Shown: positions 1-12,288 of the stretch, piece after piece
How the letters are laid out: every line of letters starts with the position of its first letter
How positions within the stretch are numbered: the first letter of the stretch is position 1
Source of the DNA: Deltaproteobacteria bacterium
Lineage (GTDB): Bacteria; Desulfobacterota; Desulfobacteria; Desulfobacterales; JAFDCJ01
Assembly: GCA_024277475.1 (NCBI GenBank)
Contig: JAJRVC010000499.1
Span: 1-12,839, forward strand
Direction of reading: 5' to 3'
DNA length: 12,839 nt
Program-made: the position numbers and the translations under genes
The notes under the pieces: generated by a model
What the model was told of the DNA's origin: nothing
What the model saw: only the letters and a program-made list of their open reading frames with translations
Database searches by the model: none

Positions 1-111
1 CGGGAAAGCAGGAGAACTTCAGATCCTGTGTTGTCAAGGATTCGAGGTAAACGACTACAACTTCACCCTTGACGCCTTGGCTCTGAAGCCCTCCTGCTTT
101 TGCAACGATAG
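1..111. repeat. 111-bp hairpin repeat, copy A (left part may be cut by the window edge)
   Basis: This sequence recurs at 7644-7754 in the same orientation with only three substitutions (positions 10, 37 and 95). It folds into a long imperfect hairpin: 5-14 pairs with 91-100, 17-23 with 82-88, 25-26 with 79-80, 33-39 with 67-73, and 44-48 with 60-64 around an 11-nt loop. Positions 10 and 95 face each other in the stem. They are A and T here but C and G in copy B, a compensatory change. It lies in the leader of the TonB-dependent receptor gene. The family is not recognised. A MITE/REP-like element or a structured RNA both fit. Confidence 0.85.
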
Positions 112-233
112 GGTTAAGCCCGTCAGGCAGGGGTCGGTATTAGCCCTGCCTTAACTCCAGCGGGTGCCAGGATCGATTGGTTTTACATAATGCATCCGTT
201 GGTGTTTCATAACGTTTCTAAGGCAAAAAAGTA
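112..233 (+). other. leader region before the receptor gene, with a short hairpin
   Basis: No gene is visible here. AGGCAGGG at 125-132 pairs perfectly with CCCTGCCT at 144-151 around an 11-nt loop. No T-run follows, so it is not a convincing terminator. CATAAT at 186-191 could be a -10 box but has no good -35 partner. A cobalamin riboswitch was looked for because the next gene is a TonB-dependent receptor, but the conserved B12-box and core motifs are not seen. Confidence 0.4.
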
Positions 234-2285
234 TTGATTCCTATCAAACCAAAGGCAATCAGAACTTCTCTATGGGTTGTGCTACTGATCCATCTCTTTT
301 TGGTGTCTGCTATAACGCCTGTAGCGTTGGCCCAGGAAATAGAAAAAGGCGGGAAAGTGCCACGGTTTGAGATGGAGGAGGTCGTGGTGACGGCTTCACG
401 TCAGGAGGAGGAGGTTCGTGAGACCGCGCGCAATGTCACGGTGATCACCGCTGACGACATCGCCCAGGCCACCAGCAGCTTCGTGCCGGATTTACTCTCG
501 CGTGAGGCCAACGTCACGCTGAAAAGTTTTTTCGGTACCGACAAGAACGCGGGGGTAGACATCCGGGGCATGGGTGAAACCTCCTCGAGCAATATAGTGG
601 TACTGGTGGATGGATACCGTTTGAACTCGCCGGATCTGGCCGGGCCGGACTTTTCCACCATACCGATTGGCGAAATCGAGCGGATCGAGATTGTGCGGGG
701 GGCCAACTCGGTGCTATACGGCAGTGGTGCCGTGGGAGGGGTGATCAACATCATTACCAAGCGAGGCAAAGGCAAGCCGTCGGCTTCTTTTTACGGTTCT
801 TACGGCAGCTATGATACAACCGATCTGCGGGCTTCGGGCGGCGGTTCCTATAAGGACCTGAACCTGAGCATTAATGCCGATTATTATGACGCCGACGGTT
901 ACCGTGACAACGGCGGACTTAAGAAAAAGGACGTGGGGATCCGGGCCGGTTACGACGCCACCAATCTCATCGGTGGCAATTTGCTGGAAGGTCTGTTGCT
1001 GAATCTGACCGCCGGCTATCATGATGACGAACAGGGTTTTTCCGGCGGGGTGCCTCTTGAAGACATTGATGACCGTAAAGACCGCCGCAAAACGAAAAGC
1101 CCGCAGGACAGTGCAAAAACCACAGACTTTCGGGCACGCGGAGGAATTGAGACGGATTTCGGCGCCGGCGGTGTGTTTAAACTCAACGCCGGTCTGCGGG
1201 ACCGTAACAGCGATTTTATATTCGGCTATACACCGCTGAAGTCAAAAAGCGATCAGAAAAGCCGGCTGGAAGAGGATACCGTCCTTTTAGATGGCGCATA
1301 TGTGTTAGACTATTCGTTTTGGGATCTGGGCAATACCCTGCAGATTGGCGCTGACTATTTTTATACCGATTATGTCAGCAGACGGCTCGACCAGCGCGAA
1401 CGCAAAAACAGCAAGCTTAACAACTATGGCCTGTTTGCCACCCACCGTTCCACCCTCGGCCCGCGATTGACGCTCAATCTTGGCTACCGCTACAACTATT
1501 TCGACGGGACATTTCGCAATGATGAGTTGATCGACTTCAGTGGCGATGATGTCTGGGTAAACGGAGACGAATTTGACCGCACTTACCATAACAATGCTTA
1601 TAACATCGGCCTGGTCTGGTCTCCGATCGACAGCATGTCGTTTTTTGCCAGTTTCGCCACCAGTTTCCGGATCCCCAACGTGGACGAATATGCCCTGGCG
1701 GACGATAAGTTGAAACCCCAGGAGGGGCGGCACCTCGAGGTGGGACTGCGCCAGTGGTATAAGGATCTGGTTGAGTATTCAGCCACCTTTTTCTATTTTG
1801 AAATTGACGATGAAATTTTTTTTGATGCAGACGCACGGGTCAACAGCAATTTCGAGGATACCACCCAACGAACCGGTGTGGAGTTGACCCTCAAGCTGTA
1901 TCCAGCCAAATCTCTGTATCTGTGGGGCAACTACACATACAATGAGGCCAAATTCAAGGGCAAGGATACAACTGTGCCGTTGGTGCCGAAACATCTGGCC
2001 AACTTCGGCATCGAGTGGCGCATTTTCGAGCCCCTGTCAGTGTCGTTTCTGGGAAGCTTTGTGGACGAAAAATTTGACGGCAACGACCATGACAACAAAT
2101 CCTTTGCCAAACTAGATTCCTACCAGGTGTTTGACATGAAAGCAACGTACACCCATAAATGGCTCCAGGTTTTCGGCGGGATCAACAATATTTTTAACGA
2201 ATTGTATTCCACCACAGCTTTCAGCGAGAGTTACTTTACGATGCCGACACGCAATTATTATGCCGGCGTTAAATTCTCATTCTAA
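234..2285 (+). CDS. TonB-dependent outer-membrane receptor
   Basis: This is a ligand-gated outer-membrane beta-barrel that imports a scarce nutrient using energy passed on by TonB. The product is 683 aa. Residues 1-34 form a signal peptide: a basic N-terminus, a hydrophobic core near 13-27 and an ALAQ end. A TonB box (EEVVVTA, 48-54) precedes the plug domain, which shows DIRGMGE near 109-115, VLVDGYRLN near 123-131 and IEIVRGANSVLYGSGAVGGVI near 151-171. The rest is barrel, ending in Phe (YYAGVKFSF), the usual barrel-assembly signal. The start is TTG at 234. An in-frame stop at 219-221 leaves little choice, and the Shine-Dalgarno site is weak. It heads a set with a surface protein and its own exbB-exbD-tonB. 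The plug resembles BtuB/siderophore-type receptors, but no riboswitch or metabolic neighbour identifies the ligand. Confidence 0.93.
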   Translation: MIPIKPKAIRTSLWVVLLIHLFLVSAITPVALAQEIEKGGKVPRFEMEEVVVTASRQEEEVRETARNVTVITADDIAQATSSFVPDLLSREANVTLKSFFGTDKNAGVDIRGMGETSSSNIVVLVDGYRLNSPDLAGPDFSTIPIGEIERIEIVRGANSVLYGSGAVGGVINIITKRGKGKPSASFYGSYGSYDTTDLRASGGGSYKDLNLSINADYYDADGYRDNGGLKKKDVGIRAGYDATNLIGGNLLEGLLLNLTAGYHDDEQGFSGGVPLEDIDDRKDRRKTKSPQDSAKTTDFRARGGIETDFGAGGVFKLNAGLRDRNSDFIFGYTPLKSKSDQKSRLEEDTVLLDGAYVLDYSFWDLGNTLQIGADYFYTDYVSRRLDQRERKNSKLNNYGLFATHRSTLGPRLTLNLGYRYNYFDGTFRNDELIDFSGDDVWVNGDEFDRTYHNNAYNIGLVWSPIDSMSFFASFATSFRIPNVDEYALADDKLKPQEGRHLEVGLRQWYKDLVEYSATFFYFEIDDEIFFDADARVNSNFEDTTQRTGVELTLKLYPAKSLYLWGNYTYNEAKFKGKDTTVPLVPKHLANFGIEWRIFEPLSVSFLGSFVDEKFDGNDHDNKSFAKLDSYQVFDMKATYTHKWLQVFGGINNIFNELYSTTAFSESYFTMPTRNYYAGVKFSF

Positions 2286-2328
2286 TGGTTGAATGGGGAA
2301 AAATGAATATTCAACCGGGAGAAATGTC

Positions 2329-2370
2329 ATGAAGTGGATTTGACGTATCAGCCTGTACGTTGCGGCTGCA
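2329..2370 (+). other. interrupted signal-peptide start of the surface protein (in-frame TGA)
   Basis: ATG at 2329 has a good ribosome-binding site (GGGAG, 2317-2321, 7 nt upstream) and is in frame with the following gene. It reads [18 protein letters not shown] and continues into the surface protein. Read through the TGA at 2341-2343, this is a typical Sec signal peptide: a charged start, a hydrophobic core and small residues. The next ATG (2371) has no clear ribosome-binding site and would cut off most of the signal. Possible causes are a nonsense mutation, a sequence error (TGG or CGA read as TGA), or readthrough. Confidence 0.8.
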
Positions 2371-4119
2371 ATGCTGACACACATGGCCGCTGCCGCCGGT
2401 CCCTATGCACCGGCAGCGGAAAAGCCGGGTACGACAGCCGTGTTCATGGACAGCGAGACGTTTATTGCCTGGGCCACCGGGTATGAAGCTTATATTCCTG
2501 GCGACGCGGTGACCTCCACCTGGCAAACGCCGGAGAAGGCGCTTGGAAAAGCAGCGGGTACTTCGTTTGATATCGTCAGCCTTGGCCGGGGCGGGCAGAT
2601 TACCCTGATTTTTGACCCGCCGATACGCAACGGCGGAGGCTGGGATTTCGCCGTCTTTGAAAATTCTTTCAGCGATGCTTATCTGGAACTGGCTTACGTG
2701 GAAGTATCGTCGGATGGTGTAACTTTTGTGCGTTTTGACAACGACTCGCTTACGGCCGCACCGGTTGGTGGATTTGGAACGGTTGATCCCACCAACATCA
2801 CCGGCTTTGCCGGAAAGTATCGACAGGGATTCGGCACCCCTTTTGACCTGCAGGATCTGGTGACCCGGGATGAGGTTCTTGCGGGTATCGTACAGCTGCA
2901 TCGGGTTACCCATGTCCGAATTGTGGATATCGTCGGTGACGGCACTTATTACGATACGGGCGGAGATGAGATCTACGATCCCTATCCGACCAGCCAGAGC
3001 GCTGGATTTGACCTGGACGCCGTGGGGGTCCGCTATGAATCCGGGGTGAATGTTCCACCCGATCAACCGCTTGCGGTTTCTCCTCAAGACGGAGCCGTCG
3101 ATGTCCCGCTTGATCCTGTTTTATCATCGGGCCCCTTCACGGATCCGGATACTCCCACCGGCGATTTTCATTCTATAACCCGCTGGCAAATTGCCCTGGA
3201 TGCCACTTTTACGGATATGGTTCTTGATCTGACCAGCCCGGTTTCCCTGACCAATCTGAACCTTTCCGGTTCGCTGCTGCAAACCGGTACCCCCTATTTC
3301 TGGCGCCTTCAATATTTTGACAGCGAGGACGCGGCCTCCGAGTGGTCCGCCGGCATTTCATTTACCATTACCACCGTTTCCGGTGATACCAGCGGCAACG
3401 GCATTCCCGACAAGCAGGAACTTGATCCCTCCAGCATGGTGGATCTCAATGACGACGGCATACCGGATGTCGATCAAATTAACGATCAATACAAGGTCCT
3501 TAACACGGTGCTGGGCGGGGGGCAGATGGGAGTGGCCGTATCCGGCCCCAATGTGGTTATTGAATACCTGGAATCAACCGATCCGGATCGATATCCACAA
3601 GGAAGCGGTGCGCCCGCGCCCCAGGAAACCTTGCTGGGATTGATCAGTTTCCGGATAAAGGTTCAGCATGCCGGCGATACGGAAACCATGACGATTTATT
3701 TTTCCGAACCCGTGCCGGACGACTATCAATGGAATAAATATGATCCTGTAAAGGGCTGGTACGTTTTCCCCGATGCCGAATTCAGTTCCGATCGCCGTTC
3801 CCTGACCCTGATCCTGACCGATGGAGTTGGGGGGGATGCGGACGGCCTTGCCAATGGGACCCTGATTGATCCCGGTGGGGCAGGTATCAACTCATCCGGT
3901 TCTGAATTCCCGGTGATTCCCAAAAGCGGATCTTCCGGGATCAGCGGCGGCGGCTCGCCTTGTTTTGTCTCAACGGCGGCAGACGGACAATTATCGGAAA
4001 TGTCCACCGGATCAATAATTGCATCAGTGCTTGTGTTTTTAATTTATCTTCCGGCAGCAATGATCCTGGGAATAGTTCGTCGCTCCGATGAAACAAGTGC
4101 GACAGATATTTCACCCTGA
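2371..4119 (+). CDS. secreted surface protein with choice-of-anchor U-type domain and C-terminal membrane anchor
   Basis: This is a large extracytoplasmic protein, probably attached to the cell surface and assisting the adjacent receptor. The role is inferred from position. Numbering from Met at 2371 (582 aa), residues about 20-225 form a beta-rich domain with [13 protein letters not shown] (88-100), [12 protein letters not shown] (111-122) and GFDLDAVGV (212-220). This pattern is common in uncharacterised bacterial cell-surface proteins. Residues about 230-335 look like an Ig/fibronectin-type domain ([23 protein letters not shown]). Residues 339-372 hold two D-rich calcium-type loops ([18 protein letters not shown]). 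Residues about 375-505 match the choice-of-anchor U pattern ([42 protein letters not shown]). The tail has [12 protein letters not shown] (526-537), a membrane segment (548-569) and an RR end, as in sorting signals. The true start is probably 2329, but a TGA breaks it, so secretion may be lost unless the stop is read through or is an error. Confidence 0.8.
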
Positions 4120-4173
4120 TGAAATAAGTACAACCAAAAAATTTTATTGGGTAGGGTTACCACGAGGAGAAGA

Positions 4174-4833
4174 ATGTATTTGCTGACAATTTTTACTAAA
4201 GGCGGGCTGGTTATGTATCCGCTGCTGGCGTGTTCTGTCATTGCATTGAGCGTGATCATTGACCGGACCCTTTTTTGGGTGAGGCAGAGTTTACTGAGAT
4301 CGCCGTCACTGGTCGATGAGATCCTGGAGCTTTATCGTTGCGGAGATCTTGAAGCAATTCGAAAAAAAACCACCGGATGCAAGGATTTTGTCGTTAAAGT
4401 CCTTGTCAGCGGCATTGTTCATCGCAAATTTTCCATGGTGAAAGCCATGGAATCGGCGGCAACTGAAGAAATTAAACGGATGCGGCGATTCATGCCCGTA
4501 CTGGATACTATGATTACCGTAGCCCCGCTGCTGGGGATTTTCGGGACCGTCCTGGGGATTATTTCATCGTTTGAAATCCTGGGTTCAGCAGGCATCGAAC
4601 AGCCCCAGGCTGTAACGGCCGGAATTGCCCAGGCCTTAATCACCACCGCCGCCGGTTTGGGGATTGCGATTATAGCCGTATTTCCCTATAATTATTTTAA
4701 TTCGCGTGTTGAAAATGAAATCCTGACGATTGAGCAATATGCCACCACTCTGGAGATTGTTTCACAGAAACAGGTACCTGGAGCAGGGGAGGCCGGGGGA
4801 AGACCGGATGAAAATTCAGCATCTGCCAATTAG
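4174..4833 (+). CDS. exbB: ExbB/TolQ-type proton channel subunit
   Basis: This inner-membrane subunit conducts protons with ExbD and drives TonB. The start is taken at ATG 4174, with GAGGAG at 4164-4169 just upstream. A TTG nine codons earlier lacks a site. The product is 219 aa, normal for ExbB. It has a membrane segment near 12-30, a cytoplasmic loop, and the two family-signature helices: ITVAPLLGIFGTVLGIISSF near 114-133 and ALITTAAGLGIAIIAVFPYN near 154-173. These contain the conserved Thr and small residues that line the channel. Its 3' end overlaps exbD by 26 bases, which points to translational coupling. TolQ or MotA would be alternatives, but the exbD and tonB neighbours make ExbB the better name. 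Confidence 0.93.
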   Translation: MYLLTIFTKGGLVMYPLLACSVIALSVIIDRTLFWVRQSLLRSPSLVDEILELYRCGDLEAIRKKTTGCKDFVVKVLVSGIVHRKFSMVKAMESAATEEIKRMRRFMPVLDTMITVAPLLGIFGTVLGIISSFEILGSAGIEQPQAVTAGIAQALITTAAGLGIAIIAVFPYNYFNSRVENEILTIEQYATTLEIVSQKQVPGAGEAGGRPDENSASAN

Positions 4834-5218
4834 AAAAGCCCGCATTGAAATGCTGCCGCTGATAGACATCGTTTTTTTACTGCTGGTGTTTTTTATTTAC
4901 GCGATGCTTTCTATGGCTGTGCACCATGGATTGCCGGTGGTGCTGCCAAGCTCGGTTTCAGCCGAAATCGATAAAAAATTGGTGCTCTCGTTGACCATCA
5001 AAGCTGATGAATCAATCTATGTCGATGAAGAGCCGCTGGCCTTGGAAACCCTCACGGAAGTACTGAAAACCAAAATCGCAGGCACCAAGGAACCCGGAGT
5101 CCTGATTTTTGCAGACCGCAGGCTTAAGTACCAGAAGCTTTATGAAGTTCTAGATAAGATCAGGCTGGCAGGGATAGACCGAATATCCCTGCAGGCTGAA
5201 TTTGAGAAAAATCAGTGA
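4808..5218 (+). CDS. exbD: ExbD/TolR-type energy-transducing protein
   Basis: This is the partner of ExbB in the TonB motor: one N-terminal membrane helix and a periplasmic domain. ATG at 4808 follows a G-rich stretch (GGGGGA, 4796-4801) and gives 136 aa, the usual size. An open stretch upstream in the same frame is an overlap with exbB, not coding. LPLIDIVFLLLVFFI (16-30) is the signature helix with the essential proton-carrying Asp at 20. The periplasmic part continues with SVSAEIDKKLVLSLTI and IFADRRLKYQKLYEVLDKIR, as in the ExbD/TolR fold. The stop codon overlaps the tonB start (GTGA at 5215-5218). Confidence 0.93.
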   Translation: MKIQHLPIRKARIEMLPLIDIVFLLLVFFIYAMLSMAVHHGLPVVLPSSVSAEIDKKLVLSLTIKADESIYVDEEPLALETLTEVLKTKIAGTKEPGVLIFADRRLKYQKLYEVLDKIRLAGIDRISLQAEFEKNQ

Positions 5219-6240
5219 AGCAGTTATGGCTTTCAATTTTTTTTTCCCTGGTTATTCATGCCGCTCTTTTTAGCCTAAATATTAGCCGGCTAAAAAACTT
5301 ACCATCCGTAACACCCTCCTCCAGCCGTATTACGATTACCCTGGTGTCTCTACAGTCGTTAGGGGACAAAAAGACTTCAACTCCCGAGAGGCTTTCAGAA
5401 ATTGCGGAGAAGACGCTGAGTACTCTAGAAGAAGAATCGCTATCCAGCCCGGTTGTTAAACAGATGCCGCAGCAGCCCACAAAGCGAGTACCCGCGCCGA
5501 ATCCGATCATGCCTCCGGTAGAAGAAGTTCCCCGGGGGATAACGATGAAAAAAGAATTGATGATAATCCCGGAAGTAAAACCGATTATTCTCCCATCAGA
5601 ATCAATTCCGCAGCAGACGAAGATAGCCAGAGAAACACTAATTAAAAAAGAAATGCCCGAAAAGAAGATAAAGCCAAAAAGAAGCCTTAAAAAACTGACC
5701 AAAAAGAAACAAAAAAAAGAGTCTGCCAAAAACGTCGCCCCGATCAAATCGATTAAGACATTTGTTCCAAAACCGGCAGTGGATTATAGAAATATTAAAA
5801 GGGCGGAGCTTGAGCAATCAGTAACCAGGCCGATCCCATTGCGATCGTCTAAAAATATTAACCAAATCATTAATTCCGGAATAGAAACAACAACCGAAAG
5901 CGGATCTGGATCCGAATCGATTAAACCGGCAACCAGAGGCGATCAATCAGTAAAACCAGCCCGAATTCTGATGGCAAGCCCCCTGTACCGAAGAAACCCA
6001 CCCCCCAAATACCCCAGACGCGCACGCTGGAAAGGTTATGAGGGCACTGTAGTCCTTGATGTTCTGGTGGATGAAAGCGGTACGGTTAAAGATCTGAAAG
6101 TATTTGAATCCAGCGGGTATGAGCTATTGGATAAATCAGCCCTGACGTCCGTACAAAAATGGCTGTTTACACCCGGAACCAAGGATGGTAACCCCATTGG
6201 GGTGTGGGTCCGCATACCGGTACGTTATAAATTGAAATAG
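5215..6240 (+). CDS. tonB: TonB energy transducer
   Basis: TonB spans the periplasm and transmits energy from ExbB/ExbD to the TonB box of the receptor. The start is GTG at 5215, overlapping the exbD stop, and gives 341 aa. Residues 6-24 form the single membrane anchor (SIFFSLVIHAALF) with a His at 15, placed like the functional His of TonB anchors. Residues about 50-250 are a long Pro/Lys/Glu/Ser-rich linker with a very basic stretch at 145-172. Residues about 262-341 are the TonB C-terminal domain: PPPKYPRRARWKGYEGTVVL, DESGTVKDLKVFESSGYELLD and a terminal RIPVRYKLK strand. The linker is more basic and AT-rich than the rest of the operon. The gene closes the exbB-exbD-tonB set. Confidence 0.93.
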   Translation: MKQLWLSIFFSLVIHAALFSLNISRLKNLPSVTPSSSRITITLVSLQSLGDKKTSTPERLSEIAEKTLSTLEEESLSSPVVKQMPQQPTKRVPAPNPIMPPVEEVPRGITMKKELMIIPEVKPIILPSESIPQQTKIARETLIKKEMPEKKIKPKRSLKKLTKKKQKKESAKNVAPIKSIKTFVPKPAVDYRNIKRAELEQSVTRPIPLRSSKNINQIINSGIETTTESGSGSESIKPATRGDQSVKPARILMASPLYRRNPPPKYPRRARWKGYEGTVVLDVLVDESGTVKDLKVFESSGYELLDKSALTSVQKWLFTPGTKDGNPIGVWVRIPVRYKLK

Positions 6241-6390
6241 CATACTCTATGGATTGCGCAGGCGTGCTGCCGGGGACAGGGCGACCTCGTCCATGGCCTA
6301 TTGTTATAAGAACCGGCAGGCTTTCTGTTTTGTCCGGAAGCAACGCAGCCGGACCGGATGGATAGACGGCCAAAAGGTTAAACTATTTTT
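6241..6390. other. intergenic stretch after tonB
   Basis: No gene can be supported. The short open frame at 6254-6436 has no ribosome-binding site or recognisable product and runs into the terminator. A 6-bp inverted repeat (GTCCGG 6332-6337 with CCGGAC 6349-6354, 11-nt loop) is present but has no T-tract. The rest shows no clear signal. Confidence 0.5.
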
Positions 6391-6394
6391 GAGT

Positions 6395-6434
6395 GGACCC
6401 GAAGTTTCTCGGAAACGCCTAGGGGGTCCTTTTT
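6395..6434 (+). terminator. rho-independent-type terminator of the receptor-tonB unit
   Basis: GGACCC (6395-6400) pairs with GGGTCC (6424-6429), directly followed by TTTTT (6430-6434). A second small stem lies inside, with GTTTC (6404-6408) pairing GAAAC (6412-6416). The paired length is modest, so efficiency is uncertain. The position, 150 bases after tonB and just before a new promoter, fits a transcript end. Confidence 0.65.
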
Positions 6435-6454
6435 AACCCCGAAATCACCCCGGA

Positions 6455-6490
6455 ATTCAGCTTGACAACTTAGTAAAGTATCTGTATCTC
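6455..6490 (+). promoter_or_regulatory. sigma70-like promoter of the ODP/RsbU unit
   Basis: A perfect TTGACA (6462-6467) is followed after 17 nt by TATCTC (6485-6490), a weak -10. An alternative -10, TATAAT at 6506-6511, lies in an AT-rich tract but lacks a -35 partner. The block ATTCAGCTTGACAACTT (6455-6471) matches 15 of 17 bases with the promoter at 8814-8830. Both promoters have ATCTGTAT over the -10 area. The leader to the start codon is about 140 nt. Confidence 0.55.
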
Positions 6491-6637
6491 TATATACCTG
6501 TATTTTATAATATTATAAATTATTGATGTAACGAATGCCTGAAAAAAATTGGGTCTTCAATACGGTCGTCCTCAGCAATTCTCTTCTTTCAGATTCAATC
6601 TTCATCCTATAAATAATGTTAGAAAAAAGGACATAAG

Positions 6638-7537
6638 ATGTCAGGTTATAAAAAAATGGCAACCGGTTACGACAATCCGATCGAAATCGCCGAAGGAATC
6701 TTTTGGGTCGGCTTTTATGACCGGCAATCAGGGCTGCATTGCAATCCCTATCTGATCGTCGATAACGATGAGGCTCTGGTGATCGATGGCGGAAGCCGCC
6801 CTGATTTCCCCACGGTCATGATGAAAATATTGCAGACCGGAATTGCCCCCAATCAGATTAAGTCCTTGATTTACCAGCACTATGATCCCGATCTTTGCGG
6901 CAGCATCCCGAATTTTGAGAGCATCATCAAACGCCGGGATTTAAAAATAATTTCAGCCACTGAAAATCTGATGTTTATCCGGCACTATTCAGTGTCTTCC
7001 AGCCTGTTTTCTCTCCGTGAAGAAGATTTTCAATTTGTATTTTCTTCCGGACGCACACTTCAGTTTATTAAAACGCCGTATTCGCATTCTGCCGGCAGTT
7101 TTATTACCTTTGATCCTGAAAGCAAAATTATTTTTTCCAGTGATTTGTTTGGAAGCTATGGCACCGAATGGGAGTTGTTTCTGGAATTGAAGCCCGAATG
7201 CGTTGAATGTGCCAATTTAGATGATTGCCCCCAAGGACTGCCGAATTGTCCGATCAATGATATATTGAATTTCCACAAAAAAATTATGCCGTCCTGCAAG
7301 GCCCTGAAGTATGCTCTCGAAAGATTTCTGACATTACCATTTAGAAATATTGCTCCTCAGCACGGCAGCATCATCAGGAATGAAAAGGAGATTAAATTTA
7401 TTTTTAAACTACTTACTTCTCTGACTGATGTGGGCATAGACGGGATTATCGATGACAAGTACCGTTTTGATTTTGACAACCTTGACGAACCCTTTAAACC
7501 CCCGTGTTGCATAAACAACATGGCAAAGAATATCTAA
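6638..7537 (+). CDS. metallo-beta-lactamase-fold diiron protein, oxygen-binding (ODP)/flavodiiron type, with four-Cys insert
   Basis: This is a 299-aa cytoplasmic protein with a metallo-beta-lactamase fold of the kind that holds a diiron site in flavodiiron proteins and ODP oxygen sensors. The flavodoxin domain of full flavodiiron enzymes (about 400 aa) is absent. Ligand-type residues are H81, D83 and D85 (in QHYDPDLCGS), H150 (SHSAGS), D169 (SSDLFGS) and H242 (PQHGS). The usual H-x-E-x-D-H motif ends here in Leu86, not His, so one metal ligand is replaced. A Cys set, C188-x2-C191-x5-C197-x6-C204, lies in an insert and could bind Fe-S or zinc. ATG 6638 has AAAAAGGA at 6624-6631. The last five codons lie inside the left arm of a downstream hairpin element. 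Its neighbour is an RsbU phosphatase, so an oxygen or redox sensing role is inferred. A hydrolase function is less likely. Confidence 0.8.
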   Translation: MSGYKKMATGYDNPIEIAEGIFWVGFYDRQSGLHCNPYLIVDNDEALVIDGGSRPDFPTVMMKILQTGIAPNQIKSLIYQHYDPDLCGSIPNFESIIKRRDLKIISATENLMFIRHYSVSSSLFSLREEDFQFVFSSGRTLQFIKTPYSHSAGSFITFDPESKIIFSSDLFGSYGTEWELFLELKPECVECANLDDCPQGLPNCPINDILNFHKKIMPSCKALKYALERFLTLPFRNIAPQHGSIIRNEKEIKFIFKLLTSLTDVGIDGIIDDKYRFDFDNLDEPFKPPCCINNMAKNI

Positions 7538-7638
7538 TACCCCGTTTTGTAGATGTCCCCCCTGGTGAATTCATCCGACTTCGCTCTTCGAGCTACGCCG
7601 GGACAAGAAGGATGGGGTCTATTTTGCCATGTTGTTTA
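7512..7638. repeat. long imperfect hairpin element next to repeat copy B
   Basis: Sixteen bases at 7512-7527 (TAAACAACATGGCAAA) pair perfectly with 7623-7638. Inside, ACCCC 7539-7543 pairs GGGGT 7614-7618, TTTTGT 7545-7550 pairs ACAAGA 7603-7608 with one wobble, and CCTGGTG 7561-7567 pairs CGCCGGG 7596-7602 with two wobbles. The left arm includes the last codons and stop of the upstream gene. Its right base (TTTA, 7635-7638) is also able to pair with the end of repeat copy B. Together the two hairpins fill the whole gap between the flanking genes. Confidence 0.75.
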
Positions 7639-7643
7639 CCCTG

Positions 7644-7754
7644 CGGGAAAGCCGGAGAACTTCAGATCCTGTGTTGTCAGGGATTCGAGGTAAACGACTA
7701 CAACTTCACCCTTGACGCCTTGGCTCTGAAGCCCTCCGGCTTTTGCAACGTTAG
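7644..7754. repeat. 111-bp hairpin repeat, copy B
   Basis: This is the second copy of the repeat at 1-111, 108 of 111 bases identical, in the same orientation. It has C at 7653 and G at 7738 where copy A has A and T, and these bases pair with each other. The third difference (7680, A to G) turns an A-T pair into a G-T wobble. The stem can extend outward here: TTTACCCT 7635-7642 pairs with AGCGTAAA 7753-7760 with one mismatch. The copy ends 8 bases before the RsbU start codon, so it forms nearly all the leader of that gene. Confidence 0.88.
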
Positions 7755-7762
7755 CGTAAATT

Positions 7763-8758
7763 ATGAAAATTGAAGAGATCATAAGCAATTATTTAAAATC
7801 CAGTGAGGCTAAAACCCCGCAATTATCTGCCCTGACTTATCAGCTGCTGGAGTTTTGGGCCACAACGAAAGATTTTGAAATAGACAACAGGTTATTGCAG
7901 GATCTTGTGTTTAAATACGCCGCTTCTGAAAAAAAGCTGAAACAACTCAATGAAGAACTGGTCCGGAGGCAGAATCGCATCGAGGAAGACCTGGCTGCAG
8001 CCGCGGAAATCCAGAAAAGCCTCCTGCCGCAAAAAATAGATACAATACAACACCTGGCAGTAGCATGGAAATTCAGGCCTTGCGAAAAAATTGGCGGCGA
8101 TATTTTTAACATGGTCCAGTTGGATGATAACCACTGGGCGATCTACATGCTGGATGTCAGTGGCCACGGGGTGCCTGCTGCCATGGTCACGGTTTCTGTT
8201 TTTCAAAATCTTCATCCTCAGGCCGGCAATATTTTACTGAAAACCGGTGGATCCCGGCAGACCCGCCAAATTAGAAGCCCGGCTAAAGTCCTTGAAAAAC
8301 TGGATCAGGAGTACACATTTGAGCGGTTCAATAATTTTTTTACCATAAACTATGTCATATTGAATGCGGCCACCGGAAGTTTTATCTGCAGCAGCGCTGG
8401 TCATCCACCTCCCATTATCATACGAAAATGTGGTACCCTGGACATTTTGGCGACCGGCAGCCCCCCCATGGGCACCATAGATTTACGCCTGGTGGAGGAA
8501 CAAGTTACCTTTTTTGAAGAACAAAAACAGATTCAGGCAGGGGATAAATTACTGCTTTATACGGACGGGGTGTTTGAGTATCAGAATCAGCAGGGTGAGT
8601 TTTACGGCAACAAGAGGTTTCACAAAAAATTAAGAGAACTAAAAGACATTCCAGTTTCGGCGCTGATTGACATGCTGTTTAAATCCTTAATGGAGTTTGG
8701 CAACGGCATGGAACCCCAAGACGATATCTCCTTTTTGGGAATAGAATTTAAGCAATGA
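7763..8758 (+). CDS. RsbU/SpoIIE-type PP2C serine phosphatase
   Basis: This is a cytoplasmic protein phosphatase that usually dephosphorylates an anti-sigma-factor antagonist in partner-switching control. The product is 331 aa. Residues 1-50 are an unassigned N-terminal region, and about 54-85 a coiled coil leading into AAEIQKSLLP (80-89), the typical entry to the catalytic domain. Metal-binding motifs are intact: GGDIFN (D113), MLDVSGHGVPAAM (D131), LLYTDGVFE (D268) and PQDDISFLGIEF (D320/D321), plus SAGHPPP (211-217). No receiver, PAS or GAF sensor domain is fused, so the signal must come from a partner, and the adjacent ODP-type protein is a candidate. ATG 7763 has no recognisable Shine-Dalgarno sequence. 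The hairpin repeat lies immediately before it. No anti-sigma or STAS gene is in the window. Confidence 0.92.
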   Translation: MKIEEIISNYLKSSEAKTPQLSALTYQLLEFWATTKDFEIDNRLLQDLVFKYAASEKKLKQLNEELVRRQNRIEEDLAAAAEIQKSLLPQKIDTIQHLAVAWKFRPCEKIGGDIFNMVQLDDNHWAIYMLDVSGHGVPAAMVTVSVFQNLHPQAGNILLKTGGSRQTRQIRSPAKVLEKLDQEYTFERFNNFFTINYVILNAATGSFICSSAGHPPPIIIRKCGTLDILATGSPPMGTIDLRLVEEQVTFFEEQKQIQAGDKLLLYTDGVFEYQNQQGEFYGNKRFHKKLRELKDIPVSALIDMLFKSLMEFGNGMEPQDDISFLGIEFKQ

Positions 8759-10226: not shown

Positions 10227-11207
10227 ATGAAATCCACAGAACGAAATGAAATTAATAACAGAGTGTTAGAAAATAGGGGGGCCGGTTCAACGGCTCAGAT
10301 CAGAGAGGTTGTCCAGAAAGTTGAGTCGAAAATAAAACATGCAACTCCAGGCAAACGGGTGCGCAAGGTTCTAAGAGTCCTCAAAAAGAAAGATAAAGAA
10401 GAAATCGTCCAGGCGGTACTGGAGAAATATTACAACTCTGAAGAATTAATACCCTACCAGGCGGAACTTATCAAAATGGAACGCCATCTGGAGCGGACCG
10501 CAAAAAAAATGGTCATCCTTTTCGACGGCCGGGATGCTTCCGGCAAAGGCGGGACCATCCGACGGGTGACGCGGTATATGAATGAAAAACGGTATCATAC
10601 GGTAGCCCTGGGCAAACCGAATGAACAGCAAAAAACAGAACTGCATATCAAACGGTATATCGAACACTTTCCCCATGCCGGCGAGATCGTTTTGTTTGAC
10701 AGAAGCTGGTACAACCGTGCCCTGGTTGAACCGGTGATGGGATTCTGTACTCATAACCAATACAAACGATTTTTAAAAAAGGTTATTAGCTACGAGCAGA
10801 ATTTTCTTGAAGATGAAGGTAAGACCATACTGATTAAGCTCTATTTTTCGGTAAGTAAGGAAGAGCAGGCCAGGCGTTTCGAAAGAAGAAAGAATGATCC
10901 GCTTAGGCAGTGGAAACTCTCCGAGGTAGACCTGCAGGCCCAGGATTTGTGGGACGAATTTACCGAAAAAAAATTCATGCTTTTGGAAAAGACCCATACC
11001 AAAAAATCACCCTGGCATATCATACGATCCGACGATAAGCATCTGGCCCGGCGTGAAACCATGAAGGTGATCCTCAATTCGGTGCGCTACAAAGGCAGAA
11101 GCCGCAAGCTGAATTTTACCATGGATCCGGATATTGTCATTCCAGGAGATAAGGAGTTGAAATTAATGAAAAAACAACATAGAAAATATGGTAAATTCCT
11201 GGTGTGA
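10227..11207 (+). CDS. ppk2: polyphosphate kinase 2 family protein (first of two)
   Basis: PPK2 enzymes transfer phosphate between polyphosphate and nucleotides, usually to make ATP or GTP from the diphosphate. The product is 326 aa, a single-domain form. Walker A GRDASGKGG (101-109) and Walker B LFDRSWYNR (156-164, D158) are intact, as are GFCT (172-175), LYFSVSKEEQARRFERR near 205-221, DLWDEF (240-245) and IIRSDDK near 268. The motif set resembles class I, which favours nucleoside diphosphates. Residues 1-75 are an extra basic helical region before the domain. A ribosome site (TTTGGAG, 10215-10221) is present 12 bases after the phosphoesterase. Direction of the reaction cannot be told from sequence. 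Confidence 0.93.
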   Translation: MKSTERNEINNRVLENRGAGSTAQIREVVQKVESKIKHATPGKRVRKVLRVLKKKDKEEIVQAVLEKYYNSEELIPYQAELIKMERHLERTAKKMVILFDGRDASGKGGTIRRVTRYMNEKRYHTVALGKPNEQQKTELHIKRYIEHFPHAGEIVLFDRSWYNRALVEPVMGFCTHNQYKRFLKKVISYEQNFLEDEGKTILIKLYFSVSKEEQARRFERRKNDPLRQWKLSEVDLQAQDLWDEFTEKKFMLLEKTHTKKSPWHIIRSDDKHLARRETMKVILNSVRYKGRSRKLNFTMDPDIVIPGDKELKLMKKQHRKYGKFLV

Positions 11208-11268
11208 TCCAAAAGAAAGGACAAATGTCGAATGATTTAATAGTCAATTCCAGACCGGAGGGGGAAAG

Positions 11269-12288
11269 ATGGCAAAAGAAACGAAAAAGAAATCCAAATC
11301 CAAAGGTGCCAAGCCGAAAGAAATCAAGCTGAAAGAAGCCAGGTCAATTGCGGTTGAGAAAAAGGATTCATCCAGGGCAAAAAGGAAAATAAGTGAAAAA
11401 GTCAAAAAGAAACCCAAAAAGCCAAAGGCGAAATTATCCGAACACACCAGCTTTAAAAATAAAGATAAGAAAAAGAAGAAAAACCGCAGGGCCGTTTGGG
11501 TAAAGAAATTCACCCTCTATTATGAAGACGAGTTGCACAAACTTCAGATCGAGCTTTTAAAATGGCAAAAACATGTCATTGCCAATCAAGAGCGCGTTCT
11601 AATGTTATTTGAAGGACGAGATGCCGCCGGAAAAGGCGGCACCATAAAAAGGATTATTGAACATATGAATCCACGTGGCGCCCGGGTTGTGGCACTTTTA
11701 AAACCCAGCGACAGGGAACGAACACAATGGTATTTTCAACGGTATATCCAACATCTCCCGTCCGGTGGTGAAATTGTACTTTTCGACCGCAGCTGGTACA
11801 ATCGCGCCATGGTTGAACCCACAATGGATTTTTGCACCGATGAGGAAAATAAACGTTTTTTGAAAGACACACCCATGCTGGAAGCGATGCTGGTAAAGAA
11901 CGGAATTATTTTATTCAAATTCTTTTTCTCCGTCTCTAAAGCGGAACAGTTGCGCCGGTTTGATTCTAGAGAGACGGATCCTTTGAAGCAGTATAAAATT
12001 TCTCCGGTTGACAGAGAGGCCCAGGAAAGGTGGGATGATTATACCGTTAGAAAGTTCCAGATGCTTAATGAAACCAATCGATCAATTTCTCAATGGACCA
12101 TCATCCGCTCTGACAATAAGAAAAAGGCCAGACTCAACTGTATCAAGCATATTCTGTCCAAAGTCGAGTATAAGGGTAAGATTTCCCAGGATGAGCTCAA
12201 GACAGATCCTGAGATCGCCATATCCGGCATTGATGAAATCAGATTCATGGAAGATCATTTGATGACGGGTGTTGAATTGCCCGGATAA
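11269..12288 (+). CDS. ppk2: polyphosphate kinase 2 family protein (second), with lysine-rich N-terminal tail
   Basis: This is a second PPK2 of 339 aa, clearly diverged from the first, so not a recent duplication. Walker A GRDAAGKGG (116-124), LFDRSWYNRAMVEP (171-184, D173), DFCT (187-190) and IIRSDNKKKARL are conserved. Residues 1-74 are an unusual low-complexity tail made mostly of Lys, Ala, Ser and Glu (for example KKKPKKPKAK at 47-54 and KDKKKKKNRR at 65-74), resembling histone-H1-like tails. It could bind polyphosphate or nucleic acid. A strong ribosome site (GGAGGGG, 11257-11263) precedes ATG 11269. The 61-base gap after the first ppk2 holds no other signal, so they are probably co-transcribed. 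Confidence 0.93.
   Translation: MAKETKKKSKSKGAKPKEIKLKEARSIAVEKKDSSRAKRKISEKVKKKPKKPKAKLSEHTSFKNKDKKKKKNRRAVWVKKFTLYYEDELHKLQIELLKWQKHVIANQERVLMLFEGRDAAGKGGTIKRIIEHMNPRGARVVALLKPSDRERTQWYFQRYIQHLPSGGEIVLFDRSWYNRAMVEPTMDFCTDEENKRFLKDTPMLEAMLVKNGIILFKFFFSVSKAEQLRRFDSRETDPLKQYKISPVDREAQERWDDYTVRKFQMLNETNRSISQWTIIRSDNKKKARLNCIKHILSKVEYKGKISQDELKTDPEIAISGIDEIRFMEDHLMTGVELPG

Follow-up and report, generated by a model that had tools for sequence, protein, structure and literature searches.

The 12,839-nucleotide stretch analyzed here (the window; contig JAJRVC010000499.1 of assembly GCA_024277475.1, a Desulfobacterales genome) contains two nearly identical hairpins, and raises the question of what the repeated unit is and whether its fold is under selection. 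The copies (1–117 and 7644–7760) lie on the same strand and are 95% identical; on the plus strand the first folds at −46.4 kcal/mol (z −6.3) and the second at −47.6 kcal/mol (z −5.1), and each fold beats 200 of 200 shuffles. It is probable that both belong to a non-autonomous DNA transposon, a miniature inverted-repeat transposable element (MITE), whose minus-strand fold is selected. That the unit is mobile, with inverted ends and duplicated target sites, explains why the window holds two copies; a model search of the window returned these two only (within 1–113 and 7499–7756).

The initial annotation described a 111-bp hairpin repeat with three differences between its copies. The near-identical copies are real, but the unit is longer, the second copy being the right part of the element at 7499–7756. 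Four differences, not three, fall within 1–111 (sites 10, 37, 95, and 108) and six up to 117; site 108 lies inside a terminal inverted repeat. Sites 10 and 95 do oppose each other in the stem and changed jointly from A-T to C-G, a true compensatory pair. The A-to-G change at site 37 keeps a wobble, as claimed, only if the plus strand folds; on the minus strand, which the family data favor, it gives a C·A mismatch. The shared strand of the two copies is confirmed, but their placement in front of genes weighs little, given that copies in the wider family are oriented 44 with and 34 against flanking open frames (101 copies, 37 uninformative on both sides). Two copies by themselves are insufficient to show selection; the proposed model search of related genomes and covariation check were carried out, and upheld paired stem changes in the wider family.

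The traces left behind show that a duplicating transposase moved the element. In the relative L145 (loci and genomes are cited by L and G numbers) the site is empty: the two neighboring genes, whose proteins are 80% (upstream) and 84% (downstream) identical to the window's, overlap by ATGA and are joined by one TAAA, where the window instead has the element between two TAAA copies. The element was inserted at a site of this type, and therefore supplies the last 12 codons and the stop of the window's ODP-type gene. This gene and a relative of the SpoIIE phosphatase stand side by side in 8 of the 13 fetched relatives' loci (L145–L157), and no element was seen at the window's insertion site in any of 12 of these 13 (200 bases after the gene, by eye). 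Exact 4-bp duplications flank 9 of 13 short scars (0.8 expected from flank re-pairing) and 28 of 66 longer end pairs, which include some alternative pairings of one copy (4.3 expected); a further 35 end pairs classed as "other," mostly chance pairings, gave 5 (0.8 expected). Many copies have decayed as far as 22-bp scars, two element ends fused at their common TTGCA. Such scars (e.g., CCTCAACGTTGCAACATTAAGG) occur with exact 4-bp duplications at L093, L103, L104, L106, L110, L115, L116, and L118 in G001 and G003, and would have arisen when the entire hairpin was lost between short direct repeats. Full-length elements measure 253–261 bp in 36 of 45 cases (selection limits 236–292 bp) and have 13-bp ends; they are too short for a transposase. 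Aligned fetched copies give the family ends CCTYAACGTTGCATAAACAACATGGCAAA (left) and TTTTGCAACATTAAGG (right), the family form of the left terminal inverted repeat being CCTYAACGTTGCA. Short, bounded by terminal inverted repeats, without a transposase gene, dispersed, and with a target duplication and an empty site, the element is a MITE, an already known kind.

Covariation was assessed in the hairpin P3. A total of 100 loci were fetched around copies, and 101 matches were kept including the window's two, of which 76 were long enough to align. Alignment A1 comprises 73 rows (L182, L071, and L203 dropped) and the hand-picked A2 55, after removal of 18 rows that were partial, near-duplicate, or in some cases outliers. 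A3, a sequence-only alignment of the minus strand, comprises 37; of the 18 rows removed from A2 to obtain it, 15 had a base bulged out of stem 4. A5 comprises 44 rows across divergent groups, fitted to the minus-strand model. The structure for pair counts was drawn on the window copy. In the right hairpin of A1 several pairs occur as two or three Watson–Crick types (e.g., TA/CG/GC, CG/TA, and CG/TA/AT), counted with three columns hand-shifted to line up the bulged base. In A3, 96.9% of cells are paired, and both-side changes affect 10 of 33 pairs and 55 cells, compared with at most 9 cells in slid controls; the corresponding values for A5 are 29 of 33 pairs, 329 cells, and at most 69. Shuffles and slides leave some kinship effects, and the pair counts are not probabilities. 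Several genomes carry their own variants of paired bases. Selection on one folded strand, as the initial annotation proposed, is well supported by the alternative pair types and the far lower slid controls.

Wobble pairs indicate that the folding strand is the minus strand, which is antisense to the genes of the window. Non-Watson–Crick cells in A1 are predominantly plus-strand A·C, equivalent to minus-strand G·U (106 vs. 19, one nearly invariant G·T pair omitted). When one event is counted per genome, pair, and type, as a change from the paired genome consensus, stem wobbles number 52 for the minus and 16 for the plus strand (one-sided sign test p = 7e-6); the other stem events are 13 pairing-preserving double changes and, among mismatches, 27 single and 2 double. 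Unpaired columns show no such skew, with 46 transitions of each kind. The asymmetry is predicted neither by mutational strand bias nor by symmetric palindrome repair. Thirty divergent copies, found and aligned with a minus-strand model, favor the same strand (G·U 65 vs. A·C 15 cells, with 87 other mismatches).

The predicted fold extends to the whole element. The minus strands of three full-length window-family elements form a closed junction (z −6.0, −8.2, and −9.0) in which P1, formed by the paired inverted ends, closes off three hairpins: the long P3, P2, and a tiny CCC-NNN-GGG hairpin between them. All six complete elements folded give this closed four-way junction, with z −10.4, −17.4, and −11.9 for the other three. 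In relatives the tiny hairpin is mostly CCCGNAGGG on the minus strand. Coordinates of these parts and of the flanking genes are collected in Table 1.

Table 1. Features of the window assigned to the element, its second copy, and the adjoining genes
Feature	Position	Strand	Basis
Complete mobile element, 258 bp	7499..7756	- (inferred folding strand)	Comparison with full-length elements of the set of 45; empty site in L145
Target-site duplication, left, TAAA	7495..7498	.	Direct reading; single copy in L145 empty site; 4/4 match
Target-site duplication, right, TAAA	7757..7760	.	Direct reading; L145 empty site
Left terminal inverted repeat, degenerate, CCCCCGTGTTGCA	7499..7511	+	Alignments; half of junction stem P1
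Hairpin P2, left arm	7513..7527	+	Pairs with 7623–7637 in minus-strand fold
Hairpin P2, right arm	7623..7637	+	Minus-strand fold
Small hairpin CCC-TGC-GGG between P2 and P3	7639..7647	-	Alignments; paired in three folds
Hairpin P3, covarying core (arms 7648–7666 and 7725–7743)	7648..7743	-	Pair counts; model 126.8 bits, minus strand
Right terminal inverted repeat TGCAACGTTAGCG	7744..7756	+	Alignments
Second element, right part (P3 5–100; right inverted repeat 101–113)	1..113	-	Identity, alignment, model
Putative right target-site copy of the element at 1–113, TTAA	114..117	.	Position only; left copy outside window
ODP-type metallo-beta-lactamase-fold gene	6638..7537	+	Open reading frame; PF19583; relative's gene ends at empty site (L145)
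SpoIIE-type phosphatase gene, downstream of element	7763..8758	+	PF07228

The left part of the second element lies beyond the window edge. Within P2, a 34-bp piece (7574–7607, TCCGACTTCGCTCTTCGAGCTACGCC...) has separate matches at several places in G008, G009, and G002 and looks like another dispersed repeat. Directly after the first copy, ahead of a TonB-dependent receptor gene, is an inverted repeat (125–151, AGGCAGGG...CCCTGCCT) without an Rfam match, possibly a terminator or leader structure. Two adjacent polyphosphate-kinase-2-like genes occupy 10227–12288 (the first assigned by PF03976, the second by eye). Two other origins of the repeat were discarded. An open reading frame (7504–7773) spans the element, yet the stems covary, which speaks against a coding origin; and the A-only pattern of a diversity-generating retroelement repeat is absent (site 95 changes from T to G; by eye).

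A DNA-pattern scan recovered 11 stretches, named here by the titles of their records, from three Desulfobacterales metagenome-assembled genomes (MAGs), one Calditrichota-binned contig, and one Luminiphilus contig. The Luminiphilus match looks like a chance 19-mer. The Calditrichota-binned contig (L010, JAJRYW010000521.1) has a copy that matches the one in the window at 99% identity over 142 bp, and may be a misplaced Desulfobacterales contig. In the three MAGs, BLAST at E up to 10 gave 18, 17, and 38 matches, a tally that counts partial and cross-arm hits; the copies are mostly one per contig. The 13-mer CCTYAACGTTGCA occurs 20, 1, and 37 times in the MAGs and not in a fourth genome, its backward pattern in none of the four. 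BLAST relatives are present in 21 of 58 related genomes, the three MAGs included, and a looser end pattern in 35 of the 58, many with one to three matches, as the backward control gives in some genomes. Model R1 finds relatives in 15 of 297 genomes of a phylum sample (G003 included), and model R2 has matches in 22 of 398 Pseudomonadota genomes. Searches that used the window copy or patterns taken from it gave only one 20-base match in plasmids, short weak matches in 25 phage records (best E 0.03, mostly one phage gene), and none in viral contigs. The Rfam comparison suggested in the initial annotation shows that the family matches no entry at curated thresholds: at the gathering score of Rfam 15 nothing covers the element in the window, 16 divergent loci, or nine Pseudomonadota loci (two tRNAs in L239 lie outside the element), and at E up to 10 the window copy has a single 12.8-bit match. 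The family was not found described in the literature searched, subscription journals and ISfinder being outside its scope.

Part of the R1 genomes carry elements with other ends (CCTAAATCCTGCA and CCCAAATTATGCA) and 5-bp duplications. In G089, G126, and G262, 21 of 23 elements have exact 5-bp duplications (1.4 expected), and widths of 4 or 6 give 0 of 23. The load in G089 is very heavy, with 243 end matches at up to one mismatch in a 2.5-Mb genome, compared with 15 for the backward control. An 818-bp end pair in this genome (L266), considered as an autonomous element, is a nested insertion instead. At L254, L259, L260, and L261 the same core occurs as stand-alone hairpins without the second hairpin or the remainder (by eye; L259 folded).

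Candidate enzymes were sought in element-bearing genomes. PF01609 (DDE_Tnp_1) transposases occur in 8 of 11 genomes, none with an element end within one mismatch. PF13701 matches at two contig ends of G126 are partial IS1380-family frames (1.1e-21 and 9.3e-45) bordered by CCCGGATTATGCAGCTCAAAGGCC and CCCGAATTATGCAGCTC and lying beside the ends CCCGGATTATGCA and CCCGAATTATGCA. A G126 element begins CCCGGATTATGCACTTCAAATGCC, with 21 of 24 letters the same as in CCCGGATTATGCAGCTCAAAGGCC, and within 1.26 Mb (both strands, loci partly overlapping) the end 13-mer was found only at these insertion sequence ends and at element ends. In G142 a longer IS1380-family frame (184 bits, above the curated NCBIfam full-length cut-off of 180) is followed by CCTGAATTTTGCG, one letter off the end of a G164 element. 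IS1380 target duplications are 4–5 bp, and for this reason the family fits as the mover. By sequence, the IS1380 link appears strong for G126, and is only suggestive for the window's family. Y1 transposase matches are present in all 13 element-bearing genomes searched (G089, G126, G262, G142, G069, G164, G003, G001, G060, G023, G049, G007, and G009), a search that included no element-free control genomes; listed frames exceed 290 residues in 11 of them, those of G001 and G049 being shorter only. Model searches for the P3 hairpin in 29 transposase loci, including 20 with Y1, gave no match up to E = 5; of the Y1 loci, L317 contains one exact window-family end 13-mer.

The probable explanation is a non-autonomous element of about 256 bp that would be moved in trans by a DDE transposase, most likely of the IS1380 family. 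This enzyme would recognize the 13-bp inverted ends, insert into short A/T-rich sites, and, in the window's family, duplicate 4 bp. The minus strand is predicted to fold into the closed four-way junction, in which P3, backed by covariation and the wobble asymmetry, has conserved internal loops. Since copies occupy unrelated sites in free orientation and genomes have their own paired variants, selection probably acts in active source copies, and the fold would serve the spread or persistence of the element rather than regulation of neighboring genes. It most likely acts either as minus-strand RNA or as single-stranded DNA left exposed, and a protein would bind it at the conserved loops. RNA is slightly favored, because the stems tolerate G·U wobbles and the internal loops retain some of their letters; G·T pairs form in DNA as well, and loops are hardly better conserved than stems, which weakens this preference.

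Several observations weigh against this explanation. RNAalifold on A1 yields only 14 pairs and −0.26 kcal/mol, probably because of the bulged base, and both A5 and the 30 divergent rows were fitted to a minus-strand model. Loops are barely better conserved than stems (mean 0.75 vs. 0.70; positions at ≥90% conservation, 12 of 31 vs. 15 of 66), and G007 and G012 each contain mixed pair variants inside a single genome. P2 covariation is slight (own arms 16.6, swapped arms 15.1, standard deviation 1.9; a rough test on 41 of 45 elements), and the fold of L233 (z −4.0), a sequence lacking the element's end, left P1 open. The IS1380 link comes from a divergent family and two incomplete contig ends, where both G126 frames are below the full-length cut-off and one contains a stop. 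An IS1380-type transposase with window-family ends was not found among matches in 2 of 11 genomes (none above the cut-off) and 4 of 13 (two above).

Compensation can be mimicked by neutral upkeep of a palindrome. Template switching or arm conversion (quasi-palindrome correction) is a known mutational process, and the arms here are long and close together. Such a process should, however, mend mismatches and bulges, and the internal loops stay put across families; it should also treat both strands alike, which the 52:16 stem wobbles, set beside 46:46 in loops, contradict. We consider it improbable. There is similarly little likelihood that the hairpin serves the host as a regulatory RNA, such as an attenuator, a terminator, or an mRNA-stability hairpin, and is selected at each locus. 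Transcripts of the ERIC and Correia/NEMIS MITEs are described as affecting neighboring mRNAs (PMC2229807, PMC10969869), and in the window the element separates two genes that form a conserved pair; against this, orientation shows no clear bias (44 vs. 34), 0 of 12 relatives' loci have an element at the window's site by eye, and many copies are reduced to the 22-bp scar. Strand-specific hairpins would also suit enzymes of single-stranded DNA, whether the Y1 (RAYT) transposase of REPIN-like elements or the integrase of integron attC sites. Y1 matches in 13 of 13 genomes (uncontrolled), the end 13-mer at L317, and element ends that resemble attC core boxes fit this proposal. REPIN-like and attC elements are not known to produce target duplications on insertion, which are clear in the element family, and none of the 29 transposase loci, of which 20 are Y1, has the P3 hairpin (integrases were not searched for); an origin of this kind is very improbable.

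The Pseudomonadota matches bear on how far the fold reaches. Twelve loci were inspected: seven have exact 14–25-bp inverted ends (e.g., TAGGGTCTGTTGACC) and span 216–269 bp, and five are without. Both tips carry TA in L283, L286, L291, and L292; this does not hold for L282 and L285. These matches might be unrelated palindromic MITEs that converged on a resemblance to the model, as their differing ends and likely target sites (TA-like in several), E-values from a shortened calibration, and the five loci lacking an exact inverted end of at least 14 bp would allow. Arguing against convergence, the best matches share the CAAGGC and AACG internal-loop letters, the CCC-NNN-GGG hairpin is seen by eye in 11 of the 12 loci, L283 and L291 fold into the same junction as the window family, and the lengths of the seven elements with long inverted ends fall within 216–269 bp. 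Convergence seems to us unlikely, without being negligible. A superfamily in at least two phyla, built on one strand-specific fold and carried by different transposition systems, with ends and targets changed and the junction and loop letters kept, is a tentative proposal that falls somewhat short of probable. In L281, L282, and L286 the second hairpin also matches the model, in opposite orientation, which suggests a symmetric ancestor. BLAST relatives of L286 (15 records) lie on replicons of Vibrio, Pseudoalteromonas, and Catenovulum, and at the 12 places shown are without a listed gene, in a gene table that is incomplete.

Among known systems, the element resembles the bacterial MITEs ERIC/IRU, Correia/NEMIS, RUP, and QMITE2, described as short, without a transposase gene, with inverted ends, target duplications, many copies, and stable predicted transcript folds (PMC2229807, PMC10969869). 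MITEs tabulated in PMC2229807 are under about 200 bp, most with TA ends; the element differs from them in its 4-bp or 5-bp duplications, length of about 256 bp, four-way junction, and covariation with strand bias. ERIC, Correia, and RUP have a TA target duplication, in contrast to the 4-bp duplication of the window's family. MITEs with stable hairpin transcripts are described from Thiomargarita (PMC4853749). Palindromic multicopy families are reported from Geobacter (PMC2700814). By description, the 235-bp Chunjie MITE of Geobacter uraniireducens, which sits in an operon and has numerous partial copies (PMC10969869), is similar. The CIR elements of Caulobacter and Brucella share with the element two hairpin arms joined by a linker, but are listed without a terminal inverted repeat in the PMC2229807 table. 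IS1380-family ends match in one genome (G126), and the element has no transposase. REP/REPIN sequences with RAYT are likewise dispersed strand-specific hairpins; the element is unlike them in its target duplications, its inverted ends, and the absence of the P3 hairpin from 20 of 20 Y1 loci. Integron attC sites are not known to duplicate their targets on insertion, whereas the element family shows duplications. Our overall reading is a MITE with a strand-specific fold kept across families with different ends and target duplications.

MITEs are usually seen as passive leftovers of insertion sequences, and their hairpins as a by-product of inverted repeats. If compensatory change keeps a fold on one preferred strand in families whose ends differ, then some MITEs would carry functional structure. 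It raises the testable question of whether a non-autonomous element can spread better with the help of a structured RNA or single strand. If the superfamily proposal is true, the fold, as RNA or single-stranded DNA, would be the selfish part of the element, partnered not with one transposase but with a factor of the host.

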